DNA of 64,000 bases, taken from the NCBI RefSeq assembly GCF_900070355.1, contig NZ_LN849456.1, forward strand, positions 2,232,001 through 2,296,000. The letters run 5' to 3'. This DNA is from Devriesea agamarum (GTDB lineage: Bacteria; Actinomycetota; Actinomycetes; Actinomycetales; Dermabacteraceae). Positions 764-59,186 of the stretch are shown one piece after another. Below the pieces are notes generated by a model, which saw nothing but the letters and a program-made list of their open reading frames with translations, ran no database searches and was not told the origin of the DNA. The translations under genes were made by a program, and so were the position numbers. The stretch's first letter is position 1. Every line of letters begins with the position of its first letter.

Positions 764-957
764 GCTTATTGTGCCTGTTGTGCCCGTCGTAGCTGTTATA
801 TCTGTTGTGTAGAGGGTTTCTGTGGGGTGTGTGCTATCTATCGTGTTCGGTCTGTCCTCCATCGGGGCGGTGTGCGTCGATCCCGTGGGTGACGGCGTGG
901 ACGCACGCGAGCAGAGACGGTGCGGCGTGCGGTGATCGGTCACCGTCCGATCCTTCC
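764..957. promoter_or_regulatory. Divergent promoter region between lacI-like gene and LssY_C gene
   Basis: Seen: TATAAC on the minus strand at 800-795 is a plausible -10 for the LacI-like gene, but no good -35 is visible. The 8-mer ctgttgtg occurs at 774-781 and 803-810, flanking this -10. A hairpin with 6-bp arms (CGGTGA/TCACCG, loop tcgg) lies at 930-945, just upstream of the ATG at 958. Inference: the direct repeats may be regulator contacts; no symmetric LacI operator was found. Confidence 0.35.
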
Positions 958-2499
958 ATGAATGAGGCCCGATACGATGTCAGGGTGCGTTTAGCAGGTT
1001 CCTCATCCCCTTCTGCTCCGCCGGTGCGTCGCCGTCGAGCCAAGCATTACTCCTCAAAGATTTCCGTGAAGTCCGCCGACCGCCGTCGACCACGGAAAGT
1101 TCCGGTTTATCACCATCCCACGCGCCGTGTTCGCAGCACCCGTCACTGGGAGTTTTATCCACTGTTAGACGCACTATTTGTGGCAGCGGCCGGGGCCATT
1201 ACGGTGTGGCTCGCAATTGTGTACCTACGCCAAGGTTTCTCGCTGTCGCCGACCAGGCTGCTGTACCTCCTGGTTTTTTGGGTGATGCTGTCATATCTCA
1301 CATTGCCTCGGCTGCATCAGGTGCTCACCTGGCTGTATTTGCCCGACTATTTTATTGGCCGCACCCGCACCTCAGACGGGGTGCTGGGGGACCCCGTGAA
1401 CCTGGCGATGGACGGCGATGAATGGGATATTCACGTGGCGATGCGGCGCGCTGGGTGGGTGCTTGCCGATGAGATCACCCTGCGTTCTAGCTGGAAAATG
1501 GCGATTTCAACCGTGTTTAGACGTTCCTACGCGGCAGCCCCGGTATCCTCTCTGTTCCTGTTCGGACGCAGACACGACTTTGCCTATCAGCAGGAAGTCG
1601 GCGGATCAACCACGCGTCGGCATCATGTTCGGTTTTGGCGGGTTCCCGATGGGTGGGTTCTGCCCGGCGGGCATAGGGCGCAGTGGTTGGCCGCTGGAAC
1701 CTTCGACCGCGCGGTCGGATTATCCATGTTTACCTTGCAAATCACCCATAAAATTGATGAAGACATCGATGTCGAACGCGACTACATCATCGACACCCTG
1801 CGCTACGCCGATCCCGAGGTGGAGGTGCGCACGATCAAGGACTTTTCGACCGCCTACCACGACCGCAACGGTGGCGGGGACCGGTTGCGCACCGACGGGC
1901 ATTTGCCGGTTATCAACCTGACCGGCGCGAGTGAGCGTTCACAGGGGTCAACCGCGATGATGCTTCCCCGCCACCGCCCAACCGGAATCGCGGTGATTGG
2001 CAGCCGTACATTAGCGGTCCATCACAGCAACCGGCGAATCTCGGGCCATGTGCACGACGCGCTCGACAATGCGATCGACCACCACCTGCCGCCGCCCACG
2101 ATTGTCTTCACGGCCCTGCTTGCGATGCTCCAGGTGCTGGCTATCGCGGGAATGTGGATTGCCGGGAACCTCGACCTGGACCTGGACTCGATTGTGCAGG
2201 ACCTTGCGGTGTTGCTGCCGTCGGGCATTAGCTTTGCGTGGACCGGTATTGTGGCGACCGTCGTCGCCGCGGTCGCGTTGCTGCTGGTATTGGGCACAAT
2301 CGCTCGAAATCGCTGGTGTCGTTTGGGGTTGATGGCGCTCTACCTCGGTGATGCGGTGCTGCGGTTGGTCCTGATGTCGGGGCTGGATCGCAGCCAGATT
2401 CATCATTCAGAACTAGTCGGGGTCGGATTGTCGGCGATGGCTTTGATGGCGATCACCTCGGATGCGGCCCGACTGTGGGTGCGCACCCCGAGCGAATAG
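958..2499 (+). CDS. LssY C-terminal domain membrane protein
   Basis: 513 aa from the ATG at 958; the frame stays open upstream to about 805, but that part looks non-coding (Cys/Trp-rich, no family match). Residues 1-63 are very basic (SKISVKSADRRRPRKVP). Two membrane segments follow at about 68-90 and 100-116. The soluble LssY_C core spans about 145-345, with family blocks such as AMRRAGWVLADEITLRSSWK, APVSSLFLFGRRHDFAYQQE and RHHVRFWRVPDG, then HKIDEDIDVERDYII. Four more hydrophobic segments complete the C-terminus. LssY_C is often found fused to PAP2/DedA-like membrane enzymes; here it stands without them. Its function is not established. No clear Shine-Dalgarno sequence precedes 958, so the start is tentative. 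Confidence 0.82.
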   Translation: MNEARYDVRVRLAGSSSPSAPPVRRRRAKHYSSKISVKSADRRRPRKVPVYHHPTRRVRSTRHWEFYPLLDALFVAAAGAITVWLAIVYLRQGFSLSPTRLLYLLVFWVMLSYLTLPRLHQVLTWLYLPDYFIGRTRTSDGVLGDPVNLAMDGDEWDIHVAMRRAGWVLADEITLRSSWKMAISTVFRRSYAAAPVSSLFLFGRRHDFAYQQEVGGSTTRRHHVRFWRVPDGWVLPGGHRAQWLAAGTFDRAVGLSMFTLQITHKIDEDIDVERDYIIDTLRYADPEVEVRTIKDFSTAYHDRNGGGDRLRTDGHLPVINLTGASERSQGSTAMMLPRHRPTGIAVIGSRTLAVHHSNRRISGHVHDALDNAIDHHLPPPTIVFTALLAMLQVLAIAGMWIAGNLDLDLDSIVQDLAVLLPSGISFAWTGIVATVVAAVALLLVLGTIARNRWCRLGLMALYLGDAVLRLVLMSGLDRSQIHHSELVGVGLSAMALMAITSDAARLWVRTPSE

Positions 2500-35241: not shown

Positions 35242-36849
35242 GTGACCATCGAAGACTTCTTCCGATTGACGCTGCGTCATATCGGAATACTGATCGGCTC
35301 GATAATCGTGTGCCTTGCGGCGTCATATGGGATGTTTTCCCTGCGCACGCCCGTCTATCAAGCTAGCGCCCTCGGCTACGTCTCGGCCAACGGAGGCACC
35401 GACAGCAACGGTAACCCGGTGACCCAGGCGAGCGGCAATATGCAGCTCCAGCAGGACAAAGCACAGTCCTACCTCCCGCTGTTCACCACCCGTGCCGTCG
35501 GTGAGGGAATTGTTAAGCGGCTGGACCTGGCCGATGCAAGCCCAGACGCTATCGCCGGATCCTTGAGTGTGACGGTTGCGCCGTCAGCACCCGTGATCAC
35601 GGTGACGGCCCCGGCAGCAACCCCCGAGCAAGCCCGCGATATCGCCAACGCGGCCGTAGAGTCAGCCGCCGCTGAAGCCCGGAAACTGGAAGTCGGCAGC
35701 GACAATCCCAATGCACGACCGATTGTGGCGCTCGTTCCATATCAGACGGCACTGACCCCCGGCGCCCCCGTGTCGCCAAATTTGAAGAGCTACCTCGGTG
35801 TCGGTCTGATCGTCGGAATCGTGCTTGGCTACGCCATCGCCTGGCTGCTACATCGCTCCGATACCCGCGTGCGGTCAGTGGAAGACGTCTCCAGCCACTT
35901 CGACCTTCCCGTGCTCGGCGTGATGCCAGCAATGAAAGATATGAAGCGCTCCGCCGGCGAAGCACTGCCGGAGCCCACCCACTTCGCCGTCAAAGAATCG
36001 ATCCGCAAACTACGCACAAACCTGCGGTACCTCAACGTCGATAATCCTCCCCGCGTGATCGTCGTGACCTCGGCAATTCCCGCCGAAGGTAAATCCACCG
36101 TGGCAGGTAACCTCGCCCGAGTGCTCGCCCGGTCCGGGCAGAAAACCCTGCTGATCGACGCCGATCTTCGTCGCCCCGTCGTGTACGAAGAATTCGGACT
36201 CGACGGCTCTCTCGGACTGACCCAGCTGCTGTCCGGCGCTGCAGGGCTCGACGACTGCCTGATCCCGTCGAACGTGCCGAACCTTCAGGTACTGCCCGCC
36301 GGTCAGATCCCGCCGAACCCCAGTGAATTGCTGGGCTCCCACCGCATGGAATCCCTGCTGCGCGAACTGCGCAAAGAGTACTTCATCGTGATTGACGCGC
36401 CCCCGATCCTCCCCGTGACCGACGGTGTGCTGCTAGCCCGCCACGCCGACGGCGCCATCCTCGTGATCGGAGCCGGTAAAGCCCGGCGCGAAGTGCTCAA
36501 GCGTGCGGTGGATCAGCTGCGCACCGTGGACGCCAAAGTCCTCGGCGCGGTCATCAACCAGGCCTCCACCAAGTTCGTGAAACGTCTCGCGTACGGCGAC
36601 GCCGAATACGGCTATGGCGTCTACGGTTACAGTGCCTACGGTTACGGCTCCGGGTACGTTAAAGGCTCAGGCCGCAAGCGGGGCGGATCCGATTCCCACG
36701 CGGAAACCGATGTTGAAGTGATTCCCGAGGTGGAACCAGTTCTCGCCGCAGAGGCCGGATCGGAGCATCGTCGGGCCAGCGGACGTCGTGCCGATGTCTC
36801 AGCGCGAGCCACCCATGCCCGGCCCAGTACGGACAGCACCGAGGTTTAA
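35242..36849 (+). CDS. Wzz/Wzc-type polysaccharide co-polymerase and tyrosine autokinase
   Basis: 535 aa from GTG 35242 with SD AAGGAGA. The N-terminal Wzz domain has a membrane helix at about 12-31 (HIGILIGSIIVCLAASYGMF), a periplasmic part with TVTAPAATPEQARDIANAA, and a second helix near 178-198. The cytosolic BY-kinase domain shows Walker A SAIPAEGKSTVAGNLA (about 277-292), Walker A' LLIDADLRRP and Walker B FIVIDAPPILPVTDG. A tyrosine cluster of eight Tyr (YGDAEYGYGVYGYSAYGYGS, residues about 451-472) is the autophosphorylation tail. It is followed by a further basic/acidic tail, longer than in most kinases. The fused form is typical of actinobacteria. It controls polymer length and export as the first gene of the operon. 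No CpsB/PHP-type phosphatase is in the window. Confidence 0.94.
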   Translation: MTIEDFFRLTLRHIGILIGSIIVCLAASYGMFSLRTPVYQASALGYVSANGGTDSNGNPVTQASGNMQLQQDKAQSYLPLFTTRAVGEGIVKRLDLADASPDAIAGSLSVTVAPSAPVITVTAPAATPEQARDIANAAVESAAAEARKLEVGSDNPNARPIVALVPYQTALTPGAPVSPNLKSYLGVGLIVGIVLGYAIAWLLHRSDTRVRSVEDVSSHFDLPVLGVMPAMKDMKRSAGEALPEPTHFAVKESIRKLRTNLRYLNVDNPPRVIVVTSAIPAEGKSTVAGNLARVLARSGQKTLLIDADLRRPVVYEEFGLDGSLGLTQLLSGAAGLDDCLIPSNVPNLQVLPAGQIPPNPSELLGSHRMESLLRELRKEYFIVIDAPPILPVTDGVLLARHADGAILVIGAGKARREVLKRAVDQLRTVDAKVLGAVINQASTKFVKRLAYGDAEYGYGVYGYSAYGYGSGYVKGSGRKRGGSDSHAETDVEVIPEVEPVLAAEAGSEHRRASGRRADVSARATHARPSTDSTEV

Positions 36850-36850
36850 C

Positions 36851-37756
36851 GTGGACATTACGGTGATCGTGCCCGTATACGGCCCGGCTGACGAAGCCCT
36901 ACCCCTGCTTCGGGCGGTCGCCCACACCAATCCGCCGGTGCGCACGATCGTCGTAGACGACGCCTCCCCGGTTCCTGTCAACAGCCATGAACTGCCGGCA
37001 TCGGTTGAGATCGTGCGGCGAGACCGCAACGGTGGATTCGGGGCGGCGGTCAACACCGGACTCAACCTGGTGCGCACCACATACGCCCTGGTTCTGAACT
37101 CCGACCTGACGATCCCAGACGGTTTCATTCCGAACCTTCTGGCGCACGCGAGCCCATTTCAGCCCGCCGTGATCGGGCCACGGGCCGTTGACCCGCACGG
37201 GCGCTCCGCATATTCGGGCCGCTATTGGACCACCACCAGACAGCAGGTGATCGAATGGCTGGTCCCGCTTGCTTCTCAACGCCACCGCGCGGTACTCCAC
37301 GAAGCCGTGGGACACGACGTTCGGGCAGACCGCGCCCACGGACTGGTCCCGGTTGACTGGGTATCCGGTTGTGCCATGCTGCTGCCCGTGGAACAGGTGC
37401 GTGAGGTGGGCGGGTTCGACGAGGAGTACTTCATGTACTGCGAAGAAGTCGACCTGCAAAAGCGGCTGGCTGAGCGCGGGGTTCCCGCGCTCTTAGATGC
37501 AGATCTGACCGTGGTGCATGAAGGAGGAGGCTCCTCCAGCTCTGAACGGCGCCGACGCTGGCTAGTCGCAGCCCGGGATCGGTACGCCCGCAAATTTGGT
37601 CGGCCTCGTCTGCTTCGGCTCGGTCTGCTGAGTGCGACCGGAGTGAATCTGCTGTGGAATCTCGGGCGGCGAGCAGCGGGCCGCGCCGTGGATCCGCTGG
37701 CGGTCGCACGCTTCGAGGTGTCTCTCGTGCGCGAAGCGGCAAGGAGTGCCCGGTGA
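36851..37756 (+). CDS. Family 2 glycosyltransferase (rhamnosyltransferase-like)
   Basis: 301 aa from GTG 36851, one base after the kinase stop, with SD-like gagg at 36841-36844. The GT-A fold starts MDITVIVPVYGPADEALPLL, with nucleotide-binding IVVDDASPVPV, NGGFGAAVNTGLN and the D-x-D-like YALVLNSDLTIPDGFIP. DWVSGCAMLLPVEQVREVGG and FMYCEEVDLQKRLAERG are typical of rhamnosyl/galactofuranosyl-transferase-like GT2s. A cytosolic enzyme, it probably adds a sugar to the lipid-linked repeat unit. Donor and linkage cannot be told. Confidence 0.93.
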   Translation: MDITVIVPVYGPADEALPLLRAVAHTNPPVRTIVVDDASPVPVNSHELPASVEIVRRDRNGGFGAAVNTGLNLVRTTYALVLNSDLTIPDGFIPNLLAHASPFQPAVIGPRAVDPHGRSAYSGRYWTTTRQQVIEWLVPLASQRHRAVLHEAVGHDVRADRAHGLVPVDWVSGCAMLLPVEQVREVGGFDEEYFMYCEEVDLQKRLAERGVPALLDADLTVVHEGGGSSSSERRRRWLVAARDRYARKFGRPRLLRLGLLSATGVNLLWNLGRRAAGRAVDPLAVARFEVSLVREAARSAR

Positions 37757-38772
37757 CAACGACGCGACGGCTCATGCTGGTCACGCCAAACTTTCATGGA
37801 TACTGGCGCAGTATTCACGAGGCGTTAGAACGGATCGGGCACCAGGTAGTAACAATCCGCTACGACGAATACGCCGGGGTCGCAGACAAAGTGCGGCTCA
37901 AGCTCGCGGTGGAATTGCCGGAGCGGCTGGGAGCGCACTCTGCGAGAGTGGCCGAACGCAGGCGTATCACAGCCCGGGTGCGGCTGGCAGTGCAGACAGT
38001 GCGCCCCGACGGCATCATCGTGATTAAAGGTGACCTGCTGGATGACACCTTCTGGCAGCTGCTGGATGAGCATCGCATCCCGCGCATCCTGTGGCTCTAC
38101 GACGACCTGCACCGACACGACTACACCACGGAATTCTTGCGCCACATCGGGCCGGTGCTGTCCTACTCCGCGCAAGAAACCGAGATGCTACGCGCTGAGC
38201 ACGGTGTGGATGCCACCTTCATTCCCAATGCGTTTGACCCCTACCGCGCTGAACCAGCTACTCAGCGCACAGGTGAGATCGTGTTTGTCGGCGCCAGCTA
38301 TCCGAACCGAGTCGAGCTATTAGAAGGCCTAGCGCAGCGAGGACAACCAGTCCATGTGTGGGGGAGGGACTTCTCCCGGCACCCCCTGGACCGACTGCGC
38401 ACCTGGTCCTGGTCTCGTCCAGCGCTTGAGGCCTCGCGCGATGTGCCCTTAGACGAGGCATACCGGATCGGGTCCCGCGCCGCCGCGGCAGTCAACATCC
38501 ACGGACTGCAAACGGGCCACGCCATGCGTACCTTTGAAGTGCCCGGTATGGCAGGGGTGCTGCTCGTCGATCGCGACGACGTGGCGGACTTCTACGACGT
38601 CGGCGAGGAAGTCGCGGTATGGCACAGCATTGACGAGTTAGATGACCTGTGCACCCGTGCCCGGACAGACCGACCCTGGGCAGACGGGCTCCGTGAACGA
38701 GGCCGGCGTCGAACCCTTGCCGAGCACACCTTTGATCACCGGATGCGGAAGGTGGATGAGCTATGGGACTGA
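37753..38772 (+). CDS. CgeB-like GT-B glycosyltransferase
   Basis: 339 aa from GTG 37753, overlapping the previous stop (GTGA), with SD AAGGAG at 37741-37746. The N-terminus MTTTRRLMLVTPNFHGYWRS gives the first Rossmann domain. IVFVGASYPNRVELLEGLAQ and WGRDFSRHPL lead into the C-terminal nucleotide-binding domain. VNIHGLQTGHAMRTFEVPGM matches the CgeB/spore-protein-like GT1 family motif (N-x-x-x-x-R-x-F-E-x-x-x). A DLHRHDYTTEFLRHIGPVLS segment is also typical. Probable sugar transferase in the surface-glycan pathway; substrate unknown. Confidence 0.86.
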   Translation: MTTTRRLMLVTPNFHGYWRSIHEALERIGHQVVTIRYDEYAGVADKVRLKLAVELPERLGAHSARVAERRRITARVRLAVQTVRPDGIIVIKGDLLDDTFWQLLDEHRIPRILWLYDDLHRHDYTTEFLRHIGPVLSYSAQETEMLRAEHGVDATFIPNAFDPYRAEPATQRTGEIVFVGASYPNRVELLEGLAQRGQPVHVWGRDFSRHPLDRLRTWSWSRPALEASRDVPLDEAYRIGSRAAAAVNIHGLQTGHAMRTFEVPGMAGVLLVDRDDVADFYDVGEEVAVWHSIDELDDLCTRARTDRPWADGLRERGRRRTLAEHTFDHRMRKVDELWD

Positions 38773-39959
38773 ACCACCCCCGGGATATGGACGCGTGGCG
38801 ACGATGGGAGGCGTCCCGACATCGTCTGCGGCGGGCTAAACACGCGCTCGCCGATCGTGTACGCCGTTCGGAAGCAGATCGCGCACCAGCCCGCTGGCAA
38901 GTGTTTACCCGCGAAGGAGTCGGTGCTCCCATCCTGGTGGCAATTGACTCCCTGACACCAACCTCGAAGGCTGCGCTGCTGGACTCCCTGGCATACCTGC
39001 GCTCGGGCGTGCTGGTGGTGGCCCCCGCAACCCTTCCGCTAAACCGCGCCCTGGCCGATGCAGCGGGCGGACAGCGACCCACCTCCCACCTCATCGACGC
39101 CACCCCCGAAGAGCTCGCGGCAGCCGTTGACCAGGCCGGAGGAGCCAAAGCGGTCGTCTCCCTGGGGCACCACCTTCCGGTGGGGGAGCTCGTGCACAAC
39201 CTCGCCCGCTCCCGATCATGGCCGTCATACGTGGTGCAACACGGTGCGCTCACCCCGTACACGCCGCCTCTGCCGCAGGACACCACCCTGCTGGCCTGGT
39301 CCGCAGCCGACGCTGACTTCTGGACGGTAGGGCGCCACGATGTGCGCAGTGTGGTGGTCGGTTCCCAACTGCTGTGGCAGGCCGGTCACCGCCCGCATGA
39401 AGGATGGATCGGTGAAGCCCCGGTATTCCTCGGGCAGATGCACGGCATCGAACTTCCGCGTCGGCTCATGGGACGCGCCGCCTTGCGGTTTTGCCGCGAT
39501 AACGACGCCGCCTACCGCCCCCACCCCTCAGAAAAAGACATCGCCTCCCGGCTGCGTCTGGACATGTGGAAACGGTTCGGACTACAAATCGCCCCCACCG
39601 ACGTGCCACTCAGCAAACTCGACCGCCCCGTAGTGGCCGTGTTCTCCACGGGAGTGTTGGAATCTGCGGCACGCGGCATCGCCTCGTGGGTGTATTGCCC
39701 CGGCGCACCTGCGTGGGTGCGCGAGTTCTGGGACCGATACAACATGCGCGCTTGGGGCGGTGAACCCACTTCCGCCCCAGTGATCCCCGAAGATGAGCCC
39801 GCGGTCAGCGTCGCCCAGATCCTGGATGGTCCCGAAGCGCTGGATACGCATCGGACATCTGGGCAGGATATAATGGTCGATCAGGGCAAAAGAGGTGAGT
39901 CCGTGTCGAACGGGCCCTCCGGGCGCGGGCAACGGCCCGCCGGAAAGGACCAAGCGTGA
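38763..39959 (+). CDS. Polysialyltransferase/KpsS-like GT-B protein, candidate nonulosonate transferase
   Basis: 398 aa from ATG 38763, overlapping the previous stop by 10 bp. Not a standard GT family by eye. Three features resemble bacterial polysialyltransferase, CDP-glycerol-type and KpsC/S-like enzymes: VVQHGALTPYTPPLP (a nucleotide-side loop), AYRPHPSEKDIASRL (the H-P motif that binds the CMP phosphate) and VAVFSTGVLESAARGIASWV (the S/T motif followed by the helix dipole). It lies directly upstream of the NeuA-type and NeuB-type genes, so it is a good candidate for the enzyme using the CMP-nonulosonate. The first 50 residues are rich in Arg, and a disordered C-terminus ends the protein (GPSGRGQRPAGKDQA). 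The assignment is inferential. Confidence 0.6.
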   Translation: MGLNHPRDMDAWRRWEASRHRLRRAKHALADRVRRSEADRAPARWQVFTREGVGAPILVAIDSLTPTSKAALLDSLAYLRSGVLVVAPATLPLNRALADAAGGQRPTSHLIDATPEELAAAVDQAGGAKAVVSLGHHLPVGELVHNLARSRSWPSYVVQHGALTPYTPPLPQDTTLLAWSAADADFWTVGRHDVRSVVVGSQLLWQAGHRPHEGWIGEAPVFLGQMHGIELPRRLMGRAALRFCRDNDAAYRPHPSEKDIASRLRLDMWKRFGLQIAPTDVPLSKLDRPVVAVFSTGVLESAARGIASWVYCPGAPAWVREFWDRYNMRAWGGEPTSAPVIPEDEPAVSVAQILDGPEALDTHRTSGQDIMVDQGKRGESVSNGPSGRGQRPAGKDQA

Positions 39960-40666
39960 CGATCCTCGTCGTGATCCCCGCCCGCGGCGGGTCCAAGGGC
40001 ATACCCCGCAAAAACCTTCTGCCAGTTGGGGGTAGGCCCCTGATCGCATGGACGATCGAGCAGTGCCTAGCGGCGGCCCCAGCAAGTGATCTACTGGTCA
40101 CGGTCTCCACCGAAGACACCGAAATCGCGAACGTCGCCCGAGCCCACGGCGCGCATGTCATCCAACGCCCCGCCGACCTCGCGCAGGACACCACCCCGAC
40201 CGAACCGGTGATCCTGCACGCCATGGACGTGGCCGAATCTCAGGGCATCGACCTGGAAGCGGTCATGTTGCTGCAAGCCACCTCACCGGTGCGGCTTCCC
40301 GGAACCCTAGATCGGGCGGTAGCCCAATTCCGCGACACGGGCTGTGACAGTTTGGTCGGTGTGCTGCCAGAGTCGCCATTCTTCTGGCATCTGCCAGAGA
40401 GCGACGGTCAGCAGCCCCGCGCCGACTACGACTGGACGGCTCGACCGCGTCGCCAGGAACTCACCCCGCATCAGCTCACCTATTTCGAGAACGGCAGCCT
40501 GTATATCACCTCCCCCCGCATCTACCGCGAGCAGAAAAACAGGATCGGCGGCCAGATCTCGCTGTTCGTGCTGGATGAACTCGAAGGCGTCGACATTGAT
40601 ACCCCGGCGGATATCGCCGCCGCCGAACAAATGCTTGCTCGCACAGGATGGAACCCCGCCTCATGA
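39956..40666 (+). CDS. neuA: NeuA-type CMP-nonulosonate cytidylyltransferase
   Basis: 236 aa from GTG 39956, overlapping the previous stop. VIPARGGSKGIPRKNLLPVG is the CMP-sialic acid synthetase CTP-binding signature with Arg/Lys. VTVSTEDTEIANVARAHGA, QRPADLAQDTTPTEPVILHA and VMLLQATSPVR (Q-x-T-S-P) are all typical. ENGSLYITSPRIYRE and ELEGVDIDTPADIAAAEQML complete the fold, with the last Asp residues as metal ligands. The enzyme activates a nine-carbon acidic sugar (sialic, legionaminic or related) with CTP. Sequence alone does not decide which sugar. It overlaps the NeuB-type fusion gene downstream. Confidence 0.9.
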   Translation: MTILVVIPARGGSKGIPRKNLLPVGGRPLIAWTIEQCLAAAPASDLLVTVSTEDTEIANVARAHGAHVIQRPADLAQDTTPTEPVILHAMDVAESQGIDLEAVMLLQATSPVRLPGTLDRAVAQFRDTGCDSLVGVLPESPFFWHLPESDGQQPRADYDWTARPRRQELTPHQLTYFENGSLYITSPRIYREQKNRIGGQISLFVLDELEGVDIDTPADIAAAEQMLARTGWNPAS

Positions 40667-42912
40667 TTCTCGACCGCCAGATCGCCCCCTACACGGTGTC
40701 GGCTCAGGACACTGCGCTGCACGCATTGCGTCGCATCAATGAGAACCAGGCGCGGATTGTTTTCGTGGTCGACGAACATGGCACCGTTCAAGGCGCCCTC
40801 ACGGACGGCGACATGCGCCGCTGGCTCATCGCCCACGACCAACCGGATCTCTCCGCCCCCGCTCTGCAGATCGCTAATCGGTCGTTTGTGTCGGTGGCTG
40901 AAGGCACCCCGTTGGACGAGATGCAGGCCATGACGCGCCCGGGCCTGGATCGCATACCGGTGCTAGATGAGCGAGGCCGAATGGTCGCGGTCGCCACCAC
41001 GGAAAAGATGACGTTGCGAATCGGTCGCCACATCGTGGGTCCCGGCCACCGGTCCTTGCTGATCGCTGAAATCGGGAACAACCACCAAGGCGATGTCGAC
41101 CTCGCCAAGCGTCTGGTGGACCTCTGCGCGCAAGCGGGCGCGGACGTGGTCAAGTTCCAGCTGCGCGATATGGCAGCCCTGTATCGGTCCGGCGGTAGCT
41201 CCAGCTACGGAGAAGATCTCGGACCGCAATACACCATGAACCTGCTGGCAAAGTATTCGCTTAGCGCTGACGACATGCTGCGAGTGCTCGACCACTGCGC
41301 TGCCCGCGACATCGACGCGATCTGCACCCCCTGGGATATTCCGTCGGCCAATGTGCTCCATGACTACGGACTGCCAGGCTTTAAGATTGCCTCTGCCGAC
41401 CTCACTAACCATGAGCTGCTGCACCACGTTGCGGGAATGCATCGTCCGATGATTATTTCCACCGGGATGAGCACCGAAGCGGAAATCCGCGACTCCGTGA
41501 ACCTGGTGCGTTCGCACGGGGCACCGTATGCGCTGCTGCAATGCCAATCCACTTATCCTGCGCCGTACAAGGACGTTCACCTGCGGTACATGGACCGGCT
41601 GGCGCAGATCGGCGAGTGCCCGGTCGGCTATTCGGGCCACGAACGCGGCTGGCATGTGCCGATTGCTGCTGTCGCCCGCGGCGCCCACATCATCGAAAAG
41701 CACGTGACGGTCGATAAATCCCTCGAAGGCAACGACCATAAGGTGTCCCTGCTCCCAGACGAATTTGCCCAGATGGTGCAGCAGATCCGCGATGTGGAGC
41801 TGGCGCTGGGAAGTGACCGGCCCCGCGAAGTGACCACGGGTGAGCTGATGAACCGTGTGAACCTTGCGAAGTCCTTGGTCGCCACACGGGATCTTGCGCC
41901 GGGAGATGTGATCGCTGAAAGCGATGTGACGGTGAAAAGCCCTGGCCGTGGACTGCAACCGAACCGCCGCGCCGACCTGATCGGAAAGGTTGTGCACCGC
42001 ACGGTCGCAGCCGGGGACTTCTTCTATCCCGGCGATTTAGTCGGTGAAGCCAGCACCGTTCACGAGTACTCGTTTAAACGGCCGTGGGGTCTGCCCGTGC
42101 GCTACCACGATGTGCGCCCGCTGCTTGAGGTCAGTGCCCCAGACTTCCTGGAATTCCATTTCTCCTACCGCGACATGGAAGCGGACCCGCATGCGATCTT
42201 CGCCCCGGGAGAAAAACTTCCGCAATTCTTCACCACCCATGCGCCGGACCTGTACGCCGGGGATTTCCTGATCGACCTCGCCAGCCCCGACGAGGGAATC
42301 TGGGAACGGTCGATCCGCGAAGTGCAAAACGTCATCGACATTACCCGGCAGCTGCGTGAACACTTCACCTGCGAGCAGGACCCCGTAGTCGTAGTGACCA
42401 TGGGCGGTTTCTTGCCGGACCGGCATGTTTCGCTCGACGAGCGCTACCCCATGTACGAGCGCATCCAGCGAGGCTTGGAGCGCTTGGATGAGACGGGTGT
42501 GCGACTGACCGCCCAAACTTTGCCGCCGTTCCCGTGGCTGATGGGTGGCCAGCAGTTCCACAACCTGTTCATGGATCCCGAAGACACCGTGTGGTTCTGC
42601 GAGAAATATGGACGCCGCCTCACCTTCGACGTCTCCCATTCCAAGCTCGCCGCGAATTTCGCGGGCCGTCCGTTTAGCGAATACGTGGACTTAATGGGCC
42701 CCCACATTGAGCATCTGCACATTGTCGACGCCGTCGGTGTCGACGGTGAAGGTGTTCAGGTGGGCAACGGCGAAGTGGACTTCAGGGATCTAGCTGAGCG
42801 CCTGGCCGTCCATGCTCCTCACGCCTCCTTCATCCCCGAGATTTGGCAGGGTCACGTCAATAACGGCGAAGGTTTCTTTATCGCTCTCGACCGACTCCGG
42901 GCATGGCTGTGA
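40663..42912 (+). CDS. neuB: CBS-NeuB-SAF-TIM-barrel fusion: nonulosonic acid synthase with extra domains
   Basis: 749 aa from ATG 40663, overlapping the neuA stop (ATGA); an ATG 15 bp earlier is possible. Residues 1-120: a CBS-domain pair (TALHALRRINENQARIVFVV, ALTDGDMRRWL, RIPVLDERGRMVAVAT). Residues 128-385: NeuB barrel with LLIAEIGNNHQGDVDLAKRL, DVVKFQ, QCQSTYPAPY, YSGHERG (His326) and EGNDHKVSLLPDE (His359), the metal-site motifs. Residues 398-460: SAF/antifreeze-like domain (NRVNLAKSLVATRDLAPGDV). Residues 470-749: a xylose-isomerase-like TIM barrel with FDVSHSKLAANFAG, HLHIVDAVGVDGEG and FIPEIWQGH, positions expected for metal ligands. NeuB condenses an N-acylated six-carbon sugar with phosphoenolpyruvate. 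The C-terminal barrel may supply or modify the precursor; its reaction is unknown. Confidence 0.88.
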   Translation: MILDRQIAPYTVSAQDTALHALRRINENQARIVFVVDEHGTVQGALTDGDMRRWLIAHDQPDLSAPALQIANRSFVSVAEGTPLDEMQAMTRPGLDRIPVLDERGRMVAVATTEKMTLRIGRHIVGPGHRSLLIAEIGNNHQGDVDLAKRLVDLCAQAGADVVKFQLRDMAALYRSGGSSSYGEDLGPQYTMNLLAKYSLSADDMLRVLDHCAARDIDAICTPWDIPSANVLHDYGLPGFKIASADLTNHELLHHVAGMHRPMIISTGMSTEAEIRDSVNLVRSHGAPYALLQCQSTYPAPYKDVHLRYMDRLAQIGECPVGYSGHERGWHVPIAAVARGAHIIEKHVTVDKSLEGNDHKVSLLPDEFAQMVQQIRDVELALGSDRPREVTTGELMNRVNLAKSLVATRDLAPGDVIAESDVTVKSPGRGLQPNRRADLIGKVVHRTVAAGDFFYPGDLVGEASTVHEYSFKRPWGLPVRYHDVRPLLEVSAPDFLEFHFSYRDMEADPHAIFAPGEKLPQFFTTHAPDLYAGDFLIDLASPDEGIWERSIREVQNVIDITRQLREHFTCEQDPVVVVTMGGFLPDRHVSLDERYPMYERIQRGLERLDETGVRLTAQTLPPFPWLMGGQQFHNLFMDPEDTVWFCEKYGRRLTFDVSHSKLAANFAGRPFSEYVDLMGPHIEHLHIVDAVGVDGEGVQVGNGEVDFRDLAERLAVHAPHASFIPEIWQGHVNNGEGFFIALDRLRAWL

Positions 42913-44138
42913 CCACTGCCGGTTCTGGTGTGCATCCGTCTGATCCGGGGGCAGATGTTCCCGATCCGGAGGTGCAGACCGCTGATGTAGGTGCGCACAG
43001 CCCCGATTCGCAAGGCAATTTCCGGATACGGACTGCCTTGTGGGTTGCTCCCGTCGCGGAGCTGGGAGGTGTTGCGCGGCACGTCCTGGATGTAGTGAAG
43101 ACGGGGATTCCTGGATGGCGCGTGATTGTCCTATGTCCTCCCGGGCCGCTCGCCGAGGCGATCCGTGCGCTCAACGGAGCGGTGATCACCGGCCAGATTG
43201 GTCCCGGGTGCGCAGGAAGCAGCAAGGCGAGTGCTCAGGCATCCATCGCCACGTTGAGACGAGTGGCAGCCAGGCTGCGCCCCGACATCGTGCACACCCA
43301 CCTCGCGTTCGCGGACATCGTGGCCGTCCCGGCCACCTTCGGCCTGCGCACCGCCGTCGGCACCCCCATCCGGTGTGTAAGCACCGAACACGGCATCGCG
43401 GCAGATTCACGCCTGTACAACGCATCGCTGCTCACCTCAACAGCGAAACGTCTAGCCCACACCATGCGCCTGCGCCGGTTTTCCTGTGTGATTGCGGTGT
43501 GTGAGTCTACTAAACGCGAGATTTTGCGCCAGTGGGGATACGGGCCGGGTATGCCGCCGGTGCTGGTCATCCCCAACGGCGTTGACCACCCCGACCCGGC
43601 ACCCGTGCCGGCTACTGGCCTGCGAGTGCTGTCTCTAGCCCGCCTATCTCAGGAAAAACGCATTGACCGGGTCATCGAGGCCATTGCTGCGGTGCGCCAA
43701 ACCCATCCTGAGGTGCGGCTGACGGTGGCGGGAATCGGCGAACGCGAACACTACCTGCGCGACTTGGCTGCACGGTTGGATCTGCAGGGCGTAGTTGACT
43801 TCCCCGGGCACATCGATGCCCGCTCGGCGTTGCTCGATCACGACGTGGTAGTGCAGTTATCCGCCTGGGAGAACTGTTCCTACACCCTGCTCGATGCCGT
43901 CGCCTATGGCCTCGGGGTCGTGGCAACCCCGGTGGGTGGCAACCCGGAAATTGTGCCGGATCGATGCTTGGTCCACGCCGACGACACCGCCACGGTCGCT
44001 GAACGCCTCATCGCGCAGGGGCTCGACCTCTCGGCCAGGCCCTCCCCCACCTCCTGGCGCTGGACCCGGGCCGCTATGTGCGCTCGGCTCAGCGAAGAGT
44101 ACGACAGATTGACAGGTAGATGGCAAATAGCTCCGTAA
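42903..44138 (+). CDS. Family 4 glycosyltransferase (GT-B)
   Basis: 411 aa; ATG 42903 or the GTG at 42909 (GTGA overlap with the previous stop) are both possible. A disordered 38-residue N-terminus precedes TALWVAPVAELGGVARHVLD. CESTKREILRQWG and LVIPNGVDHPDPAPV close the first domain. LRVLSLARLSQEKRIDRVIE, ENCSYTLLDAVAYGLGVVAT and VGGNPEI are the GT4 second-domain motifs (E-x(7)-E-like, here weaker: AWENCSYTLLDAVAYG). It is a retaining GT probably acting in assembly of the repeat unit. Sugar unknown. Confidence 0.92.
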   Translation: MAVTTAGSGVHPSDPGADVPDPEVQTADVGAHSPDSQGNFRIRTALWVAPVAELGGVARHVLDVVKTGIPGWRVIVLCPPGPLAEAIRALNGAVITGQIGPGCAGSSKASAQASIATLRRVAARLRPDIVHTHLAFADIVAVPATFGLRTAVGTPIRCVSTEHGIAADSRLYNASLLTSTAKRLAHTMRLRRFSCVIAVCESTKREILRQWGYGPGMPPVLVIPNGVDHPDPAPVPATGLRVLSLARLSQEKRIDRVIEAIAAVRQTHPEVRLTVAGIGEREHYLRDLAARLDLQGVVDFPGHIDARSALLDHDVVVQLSAWENCSYTLLDAVAYGLGVVATPVGGNPEIVPDRCLVHADDTATVAERLIAQGLDLSARPSPTSWRWTRAAMCARLSEEYDRLTGRWQIAP

Positions 44139-45388
44139 CGCTTACCGGTTCCCGCGAAACTTTCGCCCGCGCGGTCAGTGATCAGGCACACCGTACCGTC
44201 GGTATCATTCGTATTCCCGAGTTCATCGGCGGCCTGCTGCTGGTGACCGACGGCGTAAACCTCCCCGAGCTAAATTTCCCGCTGTCCCTTGTCGGAGTTG
44301 GACTGCTCGTGGTCACAATGATCGTGAGGGGCAGCCAGCGTAGCCTCGGTCGTTTCTCGGTAGCCCCCGTCATTTTTGCGCTCGCGCTGTGCTTTGTGGT
44401 GGCGGTCTCGATTACTACGGATCACTCGGCGCTTGCTAGTGACTGGGGACGGCGGGCACTGCGCATCGGGGCACTGCTTCTGTTCGCGTTCTTAGCGGCC
44501 GAGGGACGAATGGATCTGCGATCCCTTCTTAAAGGTCTGTTCGTCGGGCTTATCGCCAACACTGTGCTGTTTTATGTCGGCGTCGCCCCGGACGAATATG
44601 GCGGCTACCTCACTGGGTATCTTCAGGACAAAAACAAGGCTGGCCTGTTGTATTCCTGCGGCGGTCTGCTATTGCTGCTTTTGGCTAAAAGCAGGTGGCA
44701 GATCACGGGTGTGGTGGTATTTCTCGCCGCAACTACCTGGCTGACCGGTTCGCGTACCTCTTTGACCGGTTTGCTGGTTGCGTTCGTGTGGATGCTGCTG
44801 GTGACGCGGTGGAGCAAGTGGCCTCGGATAGTGGCCGCGGTCGTCATCATGCTGGTCGTGGATTTCGTGGAACAAAACTTTGCCCGCGTCGGCGAGTTCG
44901 CTAGCAGGCTCGGTTCGGACGAGCTGCGTGGTCGCATTGACGCCGCAGCCAGCCTCAAAACCGCGGCGTCACCCCTCCAAGGCCGTGGCCTGGGGGAAGC
45001 GTATGTGATCATCGATGACAATAAATGGTTCTACCACAATTCGTATTTGTCTTTGCTGGTCGAAGGGGGCTGGATCTACGCGCTCGTGATTGTGGGGGCC
45101 ACCGTCATCATCGGGTTCGGGCCGCTTCGTGACACCCTGTATACCCGGGAAATTCGCATTGCAGAAGGCGCGATGGCTTGTCTCATGGTGTGCGCGTGGA
45201 AGCTCGGCGAAGTGTTCCTCACCAATACCTGGGCGCTGGTGCTGATGGTGAGCATGGTGACTGTTTTGATGAGGGATCGCGGAGTGAGTTGGGATGAGGT
45301 GTCCGTGTTCAACCCGCGGCTTAGCAGAGCCCTGCGCAAAGCGCAGAAGATGCCCGCGTCCTCCAGCGTGCCATGGAGGCATTCGTGA
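44120..45388 (+). CDS. O-antigen ligase/polymerase-like (Wzy/WaaL) membrane protein
   Basis: 422 aa from ATG 44120, overlapping the previous gene by 19 bp. About ten hydrophobic helices. LTGSRTSLTGLLVAFVWML has the R-rich short loop, and a large outside loop around 240-310 contains LQGRGLGEAYVIIDDNKWFY followed by HNSYLSLLVEGGWIYALVIV (H-N-x-x-L, the O-antigen ligase signature with a conserved His). Such proteins polymerise or attach undecaprenyl-linked glycans at the outer face of the membrane. It would be the polymerase for this operon. Confidence 0.88.
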   Translation: MANSSVTLTGSRETFARAVSDQAHRTVGIIRIPEFIGGLLLVTDGVNLPELNFPLSLVGVGLLVVTMIVRGSQRSLGRFSVAPVIFALALCFVVAVSITTDHSALASDWGRRALRIGALLLFAFLAAEGRMDLRSLLKGLFVGLIANTVLFYVGVAPDEYGGYLTGYLQDKNKAGLLYSCGGLLLLLLAKSRWQITGVVVFLAATTWLTGSRTSLTGLLVAFVWMLLVTRWSKWPRIVAAVVIMLVVDFVEQNFARVGEFASRLGSDELRGRIDAAASLKTAASPLQGRGLGEAYVIIDDNKWFYHNSYLSLLVEGGWIYALVIVGATVIIGFGPLRDTLYTREIRIAEGAMACLMVCAWKLGEVFLTNTWALVLMVSMVTVLMRDRGVSWDEVSVFNPRLSRALRKAQKMPASSSVPWRHS

Positions 45389-57977: not shown

Positions 57978-59186
57978 ATGTGGATGCTTGAGGGGCGGCG
58001 CCAGTCCTATGCCTGGGGCTCGGTCGATGCGTTGCCGCGTCTCCTGGGGGTGGAGCCCGATCAGGATCCATTTGCTGAGATCTGGTTCGGTGCCCATCCC
58101 GTGGCGCCGGCACTAGTGCAGCGAGATGGCGGGCCGATCACGCTTGATGCGTTCATCCAATCCCAACCTCGGCGCGTGCTGGGGGATGCTTCACTGCGTA
58201 GATTCGGGCCCACACTGCCCTATCTGCTGAAGATGATTGCTCCGGCCAAACCTCTGTCGCTTCAGGTGCATCCGAGCCTGAACCATGCCCGGGAGTCCTA
58301 TGCTGCGGAAAACGCAGCCGGTATCGCGCTGGATGATCCGGCGCGCAACTATCGCGATGACAATCACAAGCCTGAAATGATTTTCGCCCTCAGCCGGTTC
58401 GAGGCTCTGTGCGGCTTTCGCACCCCTCGTCGCGCGGCATCCATCTTGGAGGGACTGGGCGTAGATCTCACAGATCGTTTGCACGCACTGCTGTGCTCGC
58501 AGCCGACGGCGACAGGTATGCGTGCGGCATTTCGGGCACTGCTGTCCCCGCACATTGAAGTCACACCCACGATGATTGAACAGGTGGTTGTCGCTTGCTC
58601 GCATCGCCTGTGCGAAGGCACGTCGCCGTCGCCCCGTATCGATGCGATTGTCGCTTCGCTGCACGAGCACCATCCGGGGGATCCCGGGGTGCTGACCGCC
58701 CTTCTACTGAATCCAGTCACGCTTGAGGCGGGGGAAGCGATGTTTGTTCCGGCGGGGGCTGTTCACTGTTACCTGAGCGGGCTCGCTGTGGAGATTATGG
58801 CTGCATCAGATAACGTGCTGCGAGCTGGGCTTACGCCCAAGCGGGTTGACGCGGACGAAATGCTGCGCTGCGTCAGTTGTGTGGCAGCTCCTCCCATGCG
58901 GGTGGCCGCTGAACGGGCTGTCGGCGGCACCGATGTGTTTTACGCACCGGTCGATGATTTTGAACTGTCGGTAACCCGGTTAGAAGGCGGCAGGTCATTT
59001 CAGCCGCGCACTCGGATTCCGGGGTCCGGGGCTCGGATCTTACTGGCGGTTGAGGGGGAGATCTTGGTGGAGACCGGAACGGGCCGCATGCTGGTGCGCG
59101 CGGGAGAAGCCGTGCTGGTCGCCGACGAGGATGGGGACGTGTGGGCTGGCGGTTGCGGGTGCGTGGTTCAGGGGGCGGTTCCGTGA
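57978..59186 (+). CDS. manA: Mannose-6-phosphate isomerase (class I)
   Basis: 402 aa from ATG 57978 with SD AAGGAC; a second ATG (MWM) follows at 57984. The cupin-type class I PMI is shown by KMIAPAKPLSLQVHPSLNHA with zinc ligand H in Q-V-H-P, DDNHKPEMIFAL, and FVPAGAVHCYLSGLAVEIMA with LRAGLTPKRVD. The enzyme interconverts fructose-6-phosphate and mannose-6-phosphate and feeds GDP-mannose and related sugar donors. It leads into the PqqD gene with a GTGA overlap, forming one transcription unit. The location in the glycan locus suits a role in supplying mannose units. Confidence 0.95.
   Translation: MWMLEGRRQSYAWGSVDALPRLLGVEPDQDPFAEIWFGAHPVAPALVQRDGGPITLDAFIQSQPRRVLGDASLRRFGPTLPYLLKMIAPAKPLSLQVHPSLNHARESYAAENAAGIALDDPARNYRDDNHKPEMIFALSRFEALCGFRTPRRAASILEGLGVDLTDRLHALLCSQPTATGMRAAFRALLSPHIEVTPTMIEQVVVACSHRLCEGTSPSPRIDAIVASLHEHHPGDPGVLTALLLNPVTLEAGEAMFVPAGAVHCYLSGLAVEIMAASDNVLRAGLTPKRVDADEMLRCVSCVAAPPMRVAAERAVGGTDVFYAPVDDFELSVTRLEGGRSFQPRTRIPGSGARILLAVEGEILVETGTGRMLVRAGEAVLVADEDGDVWAGGCGCVVQGAVP

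Follow-up and report, generated by a model that had tools for sequence, protein, structure and literature searches.

A NeuB synthase fused to an isomerase-like barrel in Devriesea agamarum: a candidate KDN pathway without NeuC

Introduction

Which sugar does a nonulosonate gene unit make when no NeuC-type epimerase accompanies it? This question is raised by a window of 64,000 nucleotides from the actinobacterium Devriesea agamarum (contig NZ_LN849456.1, positions 2,232,001 to 2,296,000; coordinates below count from the first letter of this stretch), part of a Dermabacteraceae genome that forms a single contig of 2,958,880 bases. Three co-directional genes on its + strand encode PST (38763-39959), NeuA (39956-40666) and NeuBX (40663-42912). 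A sequence-only reading had taken them for a compact nonulosonate module that lacks NeuC and proposed that this arrangement might define an unusual sugar. The first of these claims holds, and the precursor route must differ from those to N-acetylneuraminic acid (Neu5Ac), legionaminic acid and pseudaminic acid. The second we would replace: the evidence points to 2-keto-3-deoxynononic acid (KDN), a known if less common nonulosonate described in Serratia (PMC9000132).

We consider it probable that the three-gene unit makes cytidine monophosphate (CMP)-KDN and uses it for a cell-surface polysaccharide or a cell-wall glycopolymer. KDN, a sialic acid lacking the nitrogen group, is built on mannose or mannose-6-phosphate instead of N-acetylmannosamine (ManNAc). 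Because KDN needs no ManNAc, the absence of NeuC would be expected rather than strange. The unit is widespread in Actinobacteria and looks to be of a kind already known from the KDN neuB of Serratia.

Results

The three open reading frames (ORFs) overlap by 4 nucleotides each, PST with NeuA at 39956-39959 and NeuA with NeuBX at 40663-40666, in agreement with the sequence-only reading. An in-frame ATG also occurs at 40648, upstream of the NeuBX start at 40663, which is backed by a first methionine conserved in at least 90% of a 48-sequence alignment. As that reading had proposed, the second protein is an acylneuraminate-type cytidylyltransferase (CTP_transf_3, PF02348, 9.8e-19), with no haloacid dehalogenase (HAD) phosphatase domain, and the third is a NeuB fusion. 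In its 749 residues, Pfam places a CBS domain (PF00571, 1.2e-10; 40687-40827), a NeuB phosphoenolpyruvate-condensing synthase domain (PF03102, 7.9e-77; 41113-41817), an antifreeze-like SAF domain (PF08666, 8e-11; 41869-42042) and a xylose-isomerase-like triosephosphate isomerase (TIM) barrel of the AP_endonuc_2 family (PF01261, 5.3e-16; 42253-42900). In a 754-residue numbering, their limits are 14-60, 156-390, 408-465 and 536-751. A relative of the barrel is encoded by 448 stretches of the GTDB contig collection, and our counts use the best 80, all with actinobacterial titles. Because a long NeuBX is present in 79 of these 80 loci by gene calling and in all 80 by tblastn, the arrangement of the unit is not a matter of chance.

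NeuBX is the sole NeuB of the genome. Its NeuB domain scores 258 bits, above the PF03102 cut-off, and the catalytic residues D358, H326 and H347 are kept in all 83 fused proteins compared, K164 and E136 in 82 of them. This set holds the window protein, 79 proteins from the 80 loci, one Ensifer plasmid protein and two from other lineages of the phylum; locus L143, whose ORF is not in the cluster, was left out of the residue counts across the 80 loci. The AlphaFold model has a mean predicted local distance difference test score (pLDDT) of 85 and a predicted template modelling score (pTM) of only 0.55, which leaves the placement of the domains uncertain. In structure searches the NeuB part resembles Neisseria meningitidis NeuB and Campylobacter jejuni PseI, and the matches to the whole model are taken up by TIM-barrel synthases, NeuB among them.

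One position of the SAF domain sets NeuBX apart from ordinary synthases. In N. meningitidis NeuB, Arg314 is reported to contact ManNAc and has been proposed to position the N-acetyl group of this sugar, and an R314A mutant was reported as inactive (PMC6795526); the R314A and R314K variants are deposited in the PDB as 4ipi and 4ipj. HMMER alignment of NeuBX to 1xuu, 4ipi and 4ipj puts Ser426 (codon 41938-41940) at this position. Serine occupies it in 83 of 83 fused homologues, and arginine in 13 of the 13 alignable NeuB or PseI proteins of a control panel. Seven controls come from plasmids (three annotated neuB, two pseI, one beside an annotated neuC and one unannotated); the other six, all with arginine, are second NeuBs of Dermabacteraceae relatives. 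Eleven loci lie outside this panel, namely L022, an overlong frame that could not be aligned, and L023-L032, with no SAF region in the alignment. Loci L022-L032 encode NeuB-like proteins from other families of the order, and the alignable part of these has no SAF region.

Profile searches of the whole genome found no NeuC: the single Epimerase_2 protein is the non-hydrolysing WecB (426 bits against a cut-off of 210), which reaches 91 bits on the NeuC model (cut-off 236). Near NeuBX, none of the 80 loci has an Epimerase_2 homologue. Nor did they find PseB or LegB, the two PF02719 matches of the genome being GalE and RmlB. PseC and LegC were likewise not found, and NCBIfam places the five PF01041 matches (20-28 bits) elsewhere, with HisC, SufS, O-acetylhomoserine sulfhydrylase or amino-acid aminotransferases. 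The earlier observation that the window has no NeuC, PseB/C or LegB/C therefore holds for the operon and, as far as these searches reach, extends to the genome; the search beyond the window that it suggested for NeuC, PseB and LegB, widened here to PseC and LegC, found none.

These searches bear directly on the idea that NeuBX makes legionaminic or pseudaminic acid from unlinked precursor genes. The idea gains some appeal from the separate pseudaminic acid loci of other members of the family. It is nevertheless largely refuted, and we give it almost no credence: the PF02719 proteins of the genome are just GalE and RmlB, the PF01041 proteins are not PseC or LegC, and NeuBX lacks the arginine of PseI proteins and scores 220.1 bits on the PseI model TIGR03586, under the cut-off of 340.25. 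The control synthase L155, from a Dermabacteraceae relative, scores 454.5 bits on the same model.

Could NeuBX instead make Neu5Ac or a derivative, with ManNAc coming from an N-acylglucosamine 2-epimerase or from uptake in place of NeuC? NeuBX does score higher on the N-acetylneuraminate synthase model TIGR03569 (306.8 bits, under the equivalog cut-off of 399.65) than on PseI, Serratia makes a little Neu5Ac, and the genome encodes a PF07221 protein (382 bits) from a superfamily that includes N-acetylglucosamine (GlcNAc) 2-epimerases. That protein, however, is far nearer to D-mannose isomerase (499 bits, below the model's cut-off of 600), and its best structure matches are YihS/sulfoquinovose isomerases, far above the GlcNAc epimerases. 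With the arginine that would place the N-acetyl group also replaced by serine, we regard Neu5Ac as a decidedly improbable product.

A KDN product fits these observations better. We propose that NeuBX joins phosphoenolpyruvate to either mannose or mannose-6-phosphate, which would yield KDN or KDN-9-phosphate; that NeuA would activate KDN to CMP-KDN; and that PST would move KDN onto a chain made by the neighbouring glycosyltransferases and a Wzy-like protein. The acceptor would come from ordinary mannose metabolism, through the D-mannose-isomerase-like protein encoded elsewhere in the genome and through ManA (57978-59186, + strand), a class I mannose-6-phosphate isomerase (TIGR00218, 217 bits; cut-off 116) and possible source of mannose-6-phosphate. 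PF01238 has no match in the genome, though this ManA is clear by TIGR00218. For the fused barrel, as for the CBS domain, a function can only be inferred; the barrel probably carries out, or helps with, a step that is otherwise lacking, be it the supply of free mannose, the removal of the 9-phosphate or the sensing of a sugar.

The barrel scores 59.5 bits on PF01261 (cut-off 31.1). Its closest solved relative by sequence is MJ1311 (3wqo), and a short stretch resembles endonuclease IV. Eight residues, D656, H659, H684, H686, D694, E696, E726 and H731, are each invariant in the 82 homologues aligned. Gln618 (codon 42514-42516) occupies the site of the usual metal-binding Glu in the E-N-x-P motif, which is visible in MJ1311 and in L062. 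Of the 82 proteins with a residue there, 81 have Gln, the exception being the Glu of L062. The His of the HPG motif is replaced by Met, Leu or Val in 81 homologues, and several of the ligand-binding positions of endonuclease IV, the enzyme whose analogy suggests a possible phosphatase role for the barrel, are altered in NeuBX. L062, a more distant NeuB-SAF-barrel protein without CBS, keeps both the Glu and the His, and its barrel weakly matches 5-keto-L-gluconate epimerase.

These substitutions could mean that the unit is decayed or inactive and the barrel a degraded leftover, and the NeuBX of one family relative (G041) is indeed split by a stop. We find this very hard to sustain: the window ORFs are all intact, with their 4-nucleotide overlaps, and each of the eight barrel residues from D656 to H731 is kept in 82 of 82 proteins. 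By its residues, the barrel looks conserved for some function yet altered from a plain metal-dependent isomerase. Precursor supply, which the sequence-only reading had also raised and which the evidence speaks neither for nor against, or phosphate removal is the role that we lean towards, at a little under an even chance; sensing or regulation is a serious possibility that comes second, and some other role a lesser one.

The first protein of the unit is less easily placed. PST (398 residues) has no match in Pfam or NCBIfam, and its AlphaFold model (mean pLDDT 89) adopts a GT-B fold that matches the solved bacterial polysialyltransferase 5wc6 with a Z of 13.9. The label "polysialyltransferase/KpsS-like" given to it earlier is therefore plausible for the fold and for this match, and weaker as a family assignment, since no family model matches and other GT-B folds score higher. 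It has the invariant residues Q159-H160-G161, H254-P255 and S295, which may correspond to the HP and Ser/Thr motifs known from enzymes that use CMP-sialic acid. From its place upstream of NeuA, the natural reading of this predicted glycosyltransferase is a CMP-KDN (nonulosonate) transferase. Kinship of PST to a candidate transferase from Streptomyces-like clusters was considered and rejected: comparison of the two profiles, from 39 and 3 sequences, gave a probability of 0.6, that is, no relation. NeuA is the only CTP_transf_3 protein of the genome, and its best NCBIfam match is PseF, at 113 bits under a cut-off of 205.7.

Several observations weigh against KDN as the product. The case for it in Devriesea agamarum is made from genes, and homology to the Serratia NeuB is judged by a published description and by size. 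Serratia itself also made about 5% Neu5Ac (PMC9000132). The PST model matches a UDP-GlcNAc 2-epimerase with a Z of 15.2 and its best row with 15.3, against the 13.9 for 5wc6, and one genus (g3; L044 and L045) has NeuA and NeuBX with no PST between them, so PST is not indispensable. The unit contains no phosphatase or mannose-activating gene, and the acceptor could therefore be either mannose or mannose-6-phosphate. Finally, two Streptomyces-type NeuBs from natural-product-like clusters (L146 and L172) also carry serine at the Arg314 position. Because they do, the serine marks the loss of the N-acetyl contact and not KDN itself.

This last point gives room to a different 3-deoxy-2-ulosonic acid that bears no 2-N-acyl group, whether Kdo-like, heptulosonic or a KDN epimer made by the barrel, and so to an unusual sugar after all. 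The change at Arg314 signals just the lost contact, serine-type NeuBs do sit in natural-product clusters, and the barrel family includes sugar epimerases and isomerases, among which L062 weakly resembles the 5-keto-L-gluconate enzyme. The described Serratia counterpart nonetheless yields KDN (PMC9000132), and NeuA is PseF/NeuA-like, with no KdsB match above cut-off. We hold such a product to be unlikely, and keep KDN as the preferred reading.

The best 80 of the 448 barrel-encoding stretches come from Brachybacterium, Rothia, Micrococcus, Nocardioides, Phycicoccus, Microbacterium, Tessaracoccus and other genera. Counted between the ends of the window protein, 74 of the 79 called NeuBX proteins are 735-770 residues long; the five of odd length were left out of this comparison. 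A long NeuBX match is present in 17 of the 46 family relatives, the split G041 being additional, and Dermabacteraceae with the unit include Brachybacterium, Dermabacter, Helcobacillus and one isolate placed in the family. The fused form was not found in any of 51 genomes that represent other families of the order. Used by itself as a query against 396 genomes from the phylum, the barrel yielded 11 matches at E <= 0.001, the strong ones (E below 1e-30) being the window, G411, G430 and G427. One further candidate, L063, was dropped as a fused relative, just 140 residues being alignable. A full-length NeuBX also occurs in a proteobacterium, on an Ensifer plasmid, with 47% identity.

Three loci show different surroundings. 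On the Ensifer canadensis plasmid pT173e (L145, 9756-14241), a ManC/AlgA-type gene lies directly upstream of NeuA-NeuBX, a further link to mannose that favours KDN. In L061, from another actinobacterial lineage, a short-chain dehydrogenase/reductase (SDR) oxidoreductase gene (787-1590, minus strand) stands beside NeuA-NeuBX; it was not found in the 80 other loci. In L080 (Propioniferax innocua), NeuBX is alone, and a stretch of 9 kb around it holds neither NeuA nor PST nor any glycosyltransferase.

The unit is housed in a polysaccharide operon, whose genes, by Pfam, include a Wzz/CpsD-like protein, several GT2 and GT4 glycosyltransferases and a Wzy_C protein, those listed here being on the + strand. 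The Wzz/CpsD-like protein (35242-36849), of chain-length and tyrosine-kinase type, matches AAA_31 above and Wzz below cut-off. It is followed by a GT2 glycosyltransferase (36788-37756, PF00535) and, just upstream of PST, a Glyco_trans_1_2 glycosyltransferase (37654-38772, PF13524). Directly 3' of NeuBX are a GT4 glycosyltransferase (42903-44138, PF00534) and the Wzy_C membrane protein of the O-antigen ligase/polymerase family (44120-45388, PF04932). By tblastn, PST is present in 73 of the 80 loci and NeuA in 70; the glycosyltransferase upstream is found in 71, the GT4 downstream in 75 and the Wzy protein in 64, several of the misses being short contigs. Farther along the operon region are an ATP-binding cassette (ABC) transporter, a polyprenyl glycosylphosphotransferase and ManA.

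Discussion

Serratia marcescens offers the described counterpart of this unit. In its KL1 and KL2 loci, neuA accompanies a neuB that carries an additional isomerase/epimerase domain (COG1082; the cloned ORF measures 2241 bp), the polysaccharide contains KDN at about 20:1 over Neu5Ac, and mutants without neuB lose both sialic acid and capsule (PMC9000132). Supplied on a plasmid, the KL2 locus increased the sialic acids of capsule mutants of the KL3 and KL4 types (PMC12077157). Both systems set NeuA beside a NeuB of similar size fused to a sugar isomerase/epimerase-like domain. No NeuC was found in the genome of the window, and the main text on KL1/KL2 makes no mention of neuC (PMC9000132). They differ in that Serratia has a Gram-negative Wzy-type capsule, in which neuA and then neuB open the variable region, and in that the available account of its NeuB mentions no CBS domain, which NeuBX has. 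In that account the Serratia authors noted the fused domain without explaining it, and our reading, if true, gives it a testable role.

KDN is also made without NeuC in Bacteroides thetaiotaomicron and Prymnesium parvum, where mannose-6-phosphate yields KDN-9-phosphate, followed in Bacteroides by a phosphatase (PMC6200933). The Bacteroides pathway, as reported, consists of a KDN-9-phosphate synthase, a separate phosphatase and a CMP-KDN synthetase, and no fused barrel is described in that report (PMC6200933). For a dedicated HAD phosphatase beside or fused to NeuA, a single distant query from L170, which contains a stop, had no match in the 80 loci, the search being confined to these. Tentatively, and with more doubt than belief, we suggest that NeuBX represents a third design, a KDN synthase in one chain, in which a barrel with an altered metal site would make mannose or strip the 9-phosphate, steps to which others give a separate enzyme. 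Together with the serine in place of Arg314, this would mark a large unrecognised KDN-type class across Actinobacteria, oral Rothia included.

If our reading of the unit is true, the Ser/Arg difference at the Arg314 position and the fused barrel would separate KDN-type loci from N-acylated nonulosonate loci, and one would expect many Actinobacteria to carry KDN on their surface, including Rothia, Micrococcus, Brachybacterium, Nocardioides and Microbacterium. Literature searches, mostly at the level of abstracts, found no reports of KDN in these five genera and nothing on the actinobacterial fusion.

Two kinds of synthase illustrate the N-acylated side of this division. N. meningitidis NeuB (SiaC) shares the NeuB and SAF fold and about 30% identity with NeuBX; it has Arg314, has neither CBS nor barrel and works with NeuC, all of which is otherwise in NeuBX. 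The Dermabacteraceae loci L155-L160 are separate, pseudaminic-acid-type loci, and several relatives carry both these and NeuBX. Although they come from the same family and encode a NeuB-family synthase, theirs have the arginine and no barrel, and the synthases of L155 and L157, unlike NeuBX, neighbour PseB or PseC: L155 has a PseB of 474 bits, above cut-off as is its PseI score, and the PseC of L157 is also above cut-off.

Streptomyces presents a further case. Its walls carry Kdn teichulosonic acid (PMC11481543), and SCO4881 has been named NeuB (PMC2367054). In five of six Streptomyces-like genomes the NeuB match stops at the end of the NeuB domain; Pfam found no SAF in the two of these five scanned, and one scanned NeuA carries a HAD hydrolase domain, unlike the NeuA of the window. 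We take the genes SCO4877-SCO4882 to be linked to teichulosonic acid. The NeuBs without SAF resemble, and may be, Kdn teichulosonic acid genes, in which case KDN-type synthases would escape the N-acetyl-binding arginine in two ways, by having no SAF domain or by having one with serine.

The serine-type NeuB of L146, on a plasmid of Streptomyces sp. NBC_01237, lies beside transketolase-like and SDR genes. We considered this as a Streptomyces Kdn locus and dropped it, its neighbours resembling a natural-product cluster; in clusters of the L146 and L172 type, the phosphoenolpyruvate-condensing step may yield an unusual sugar or acid.

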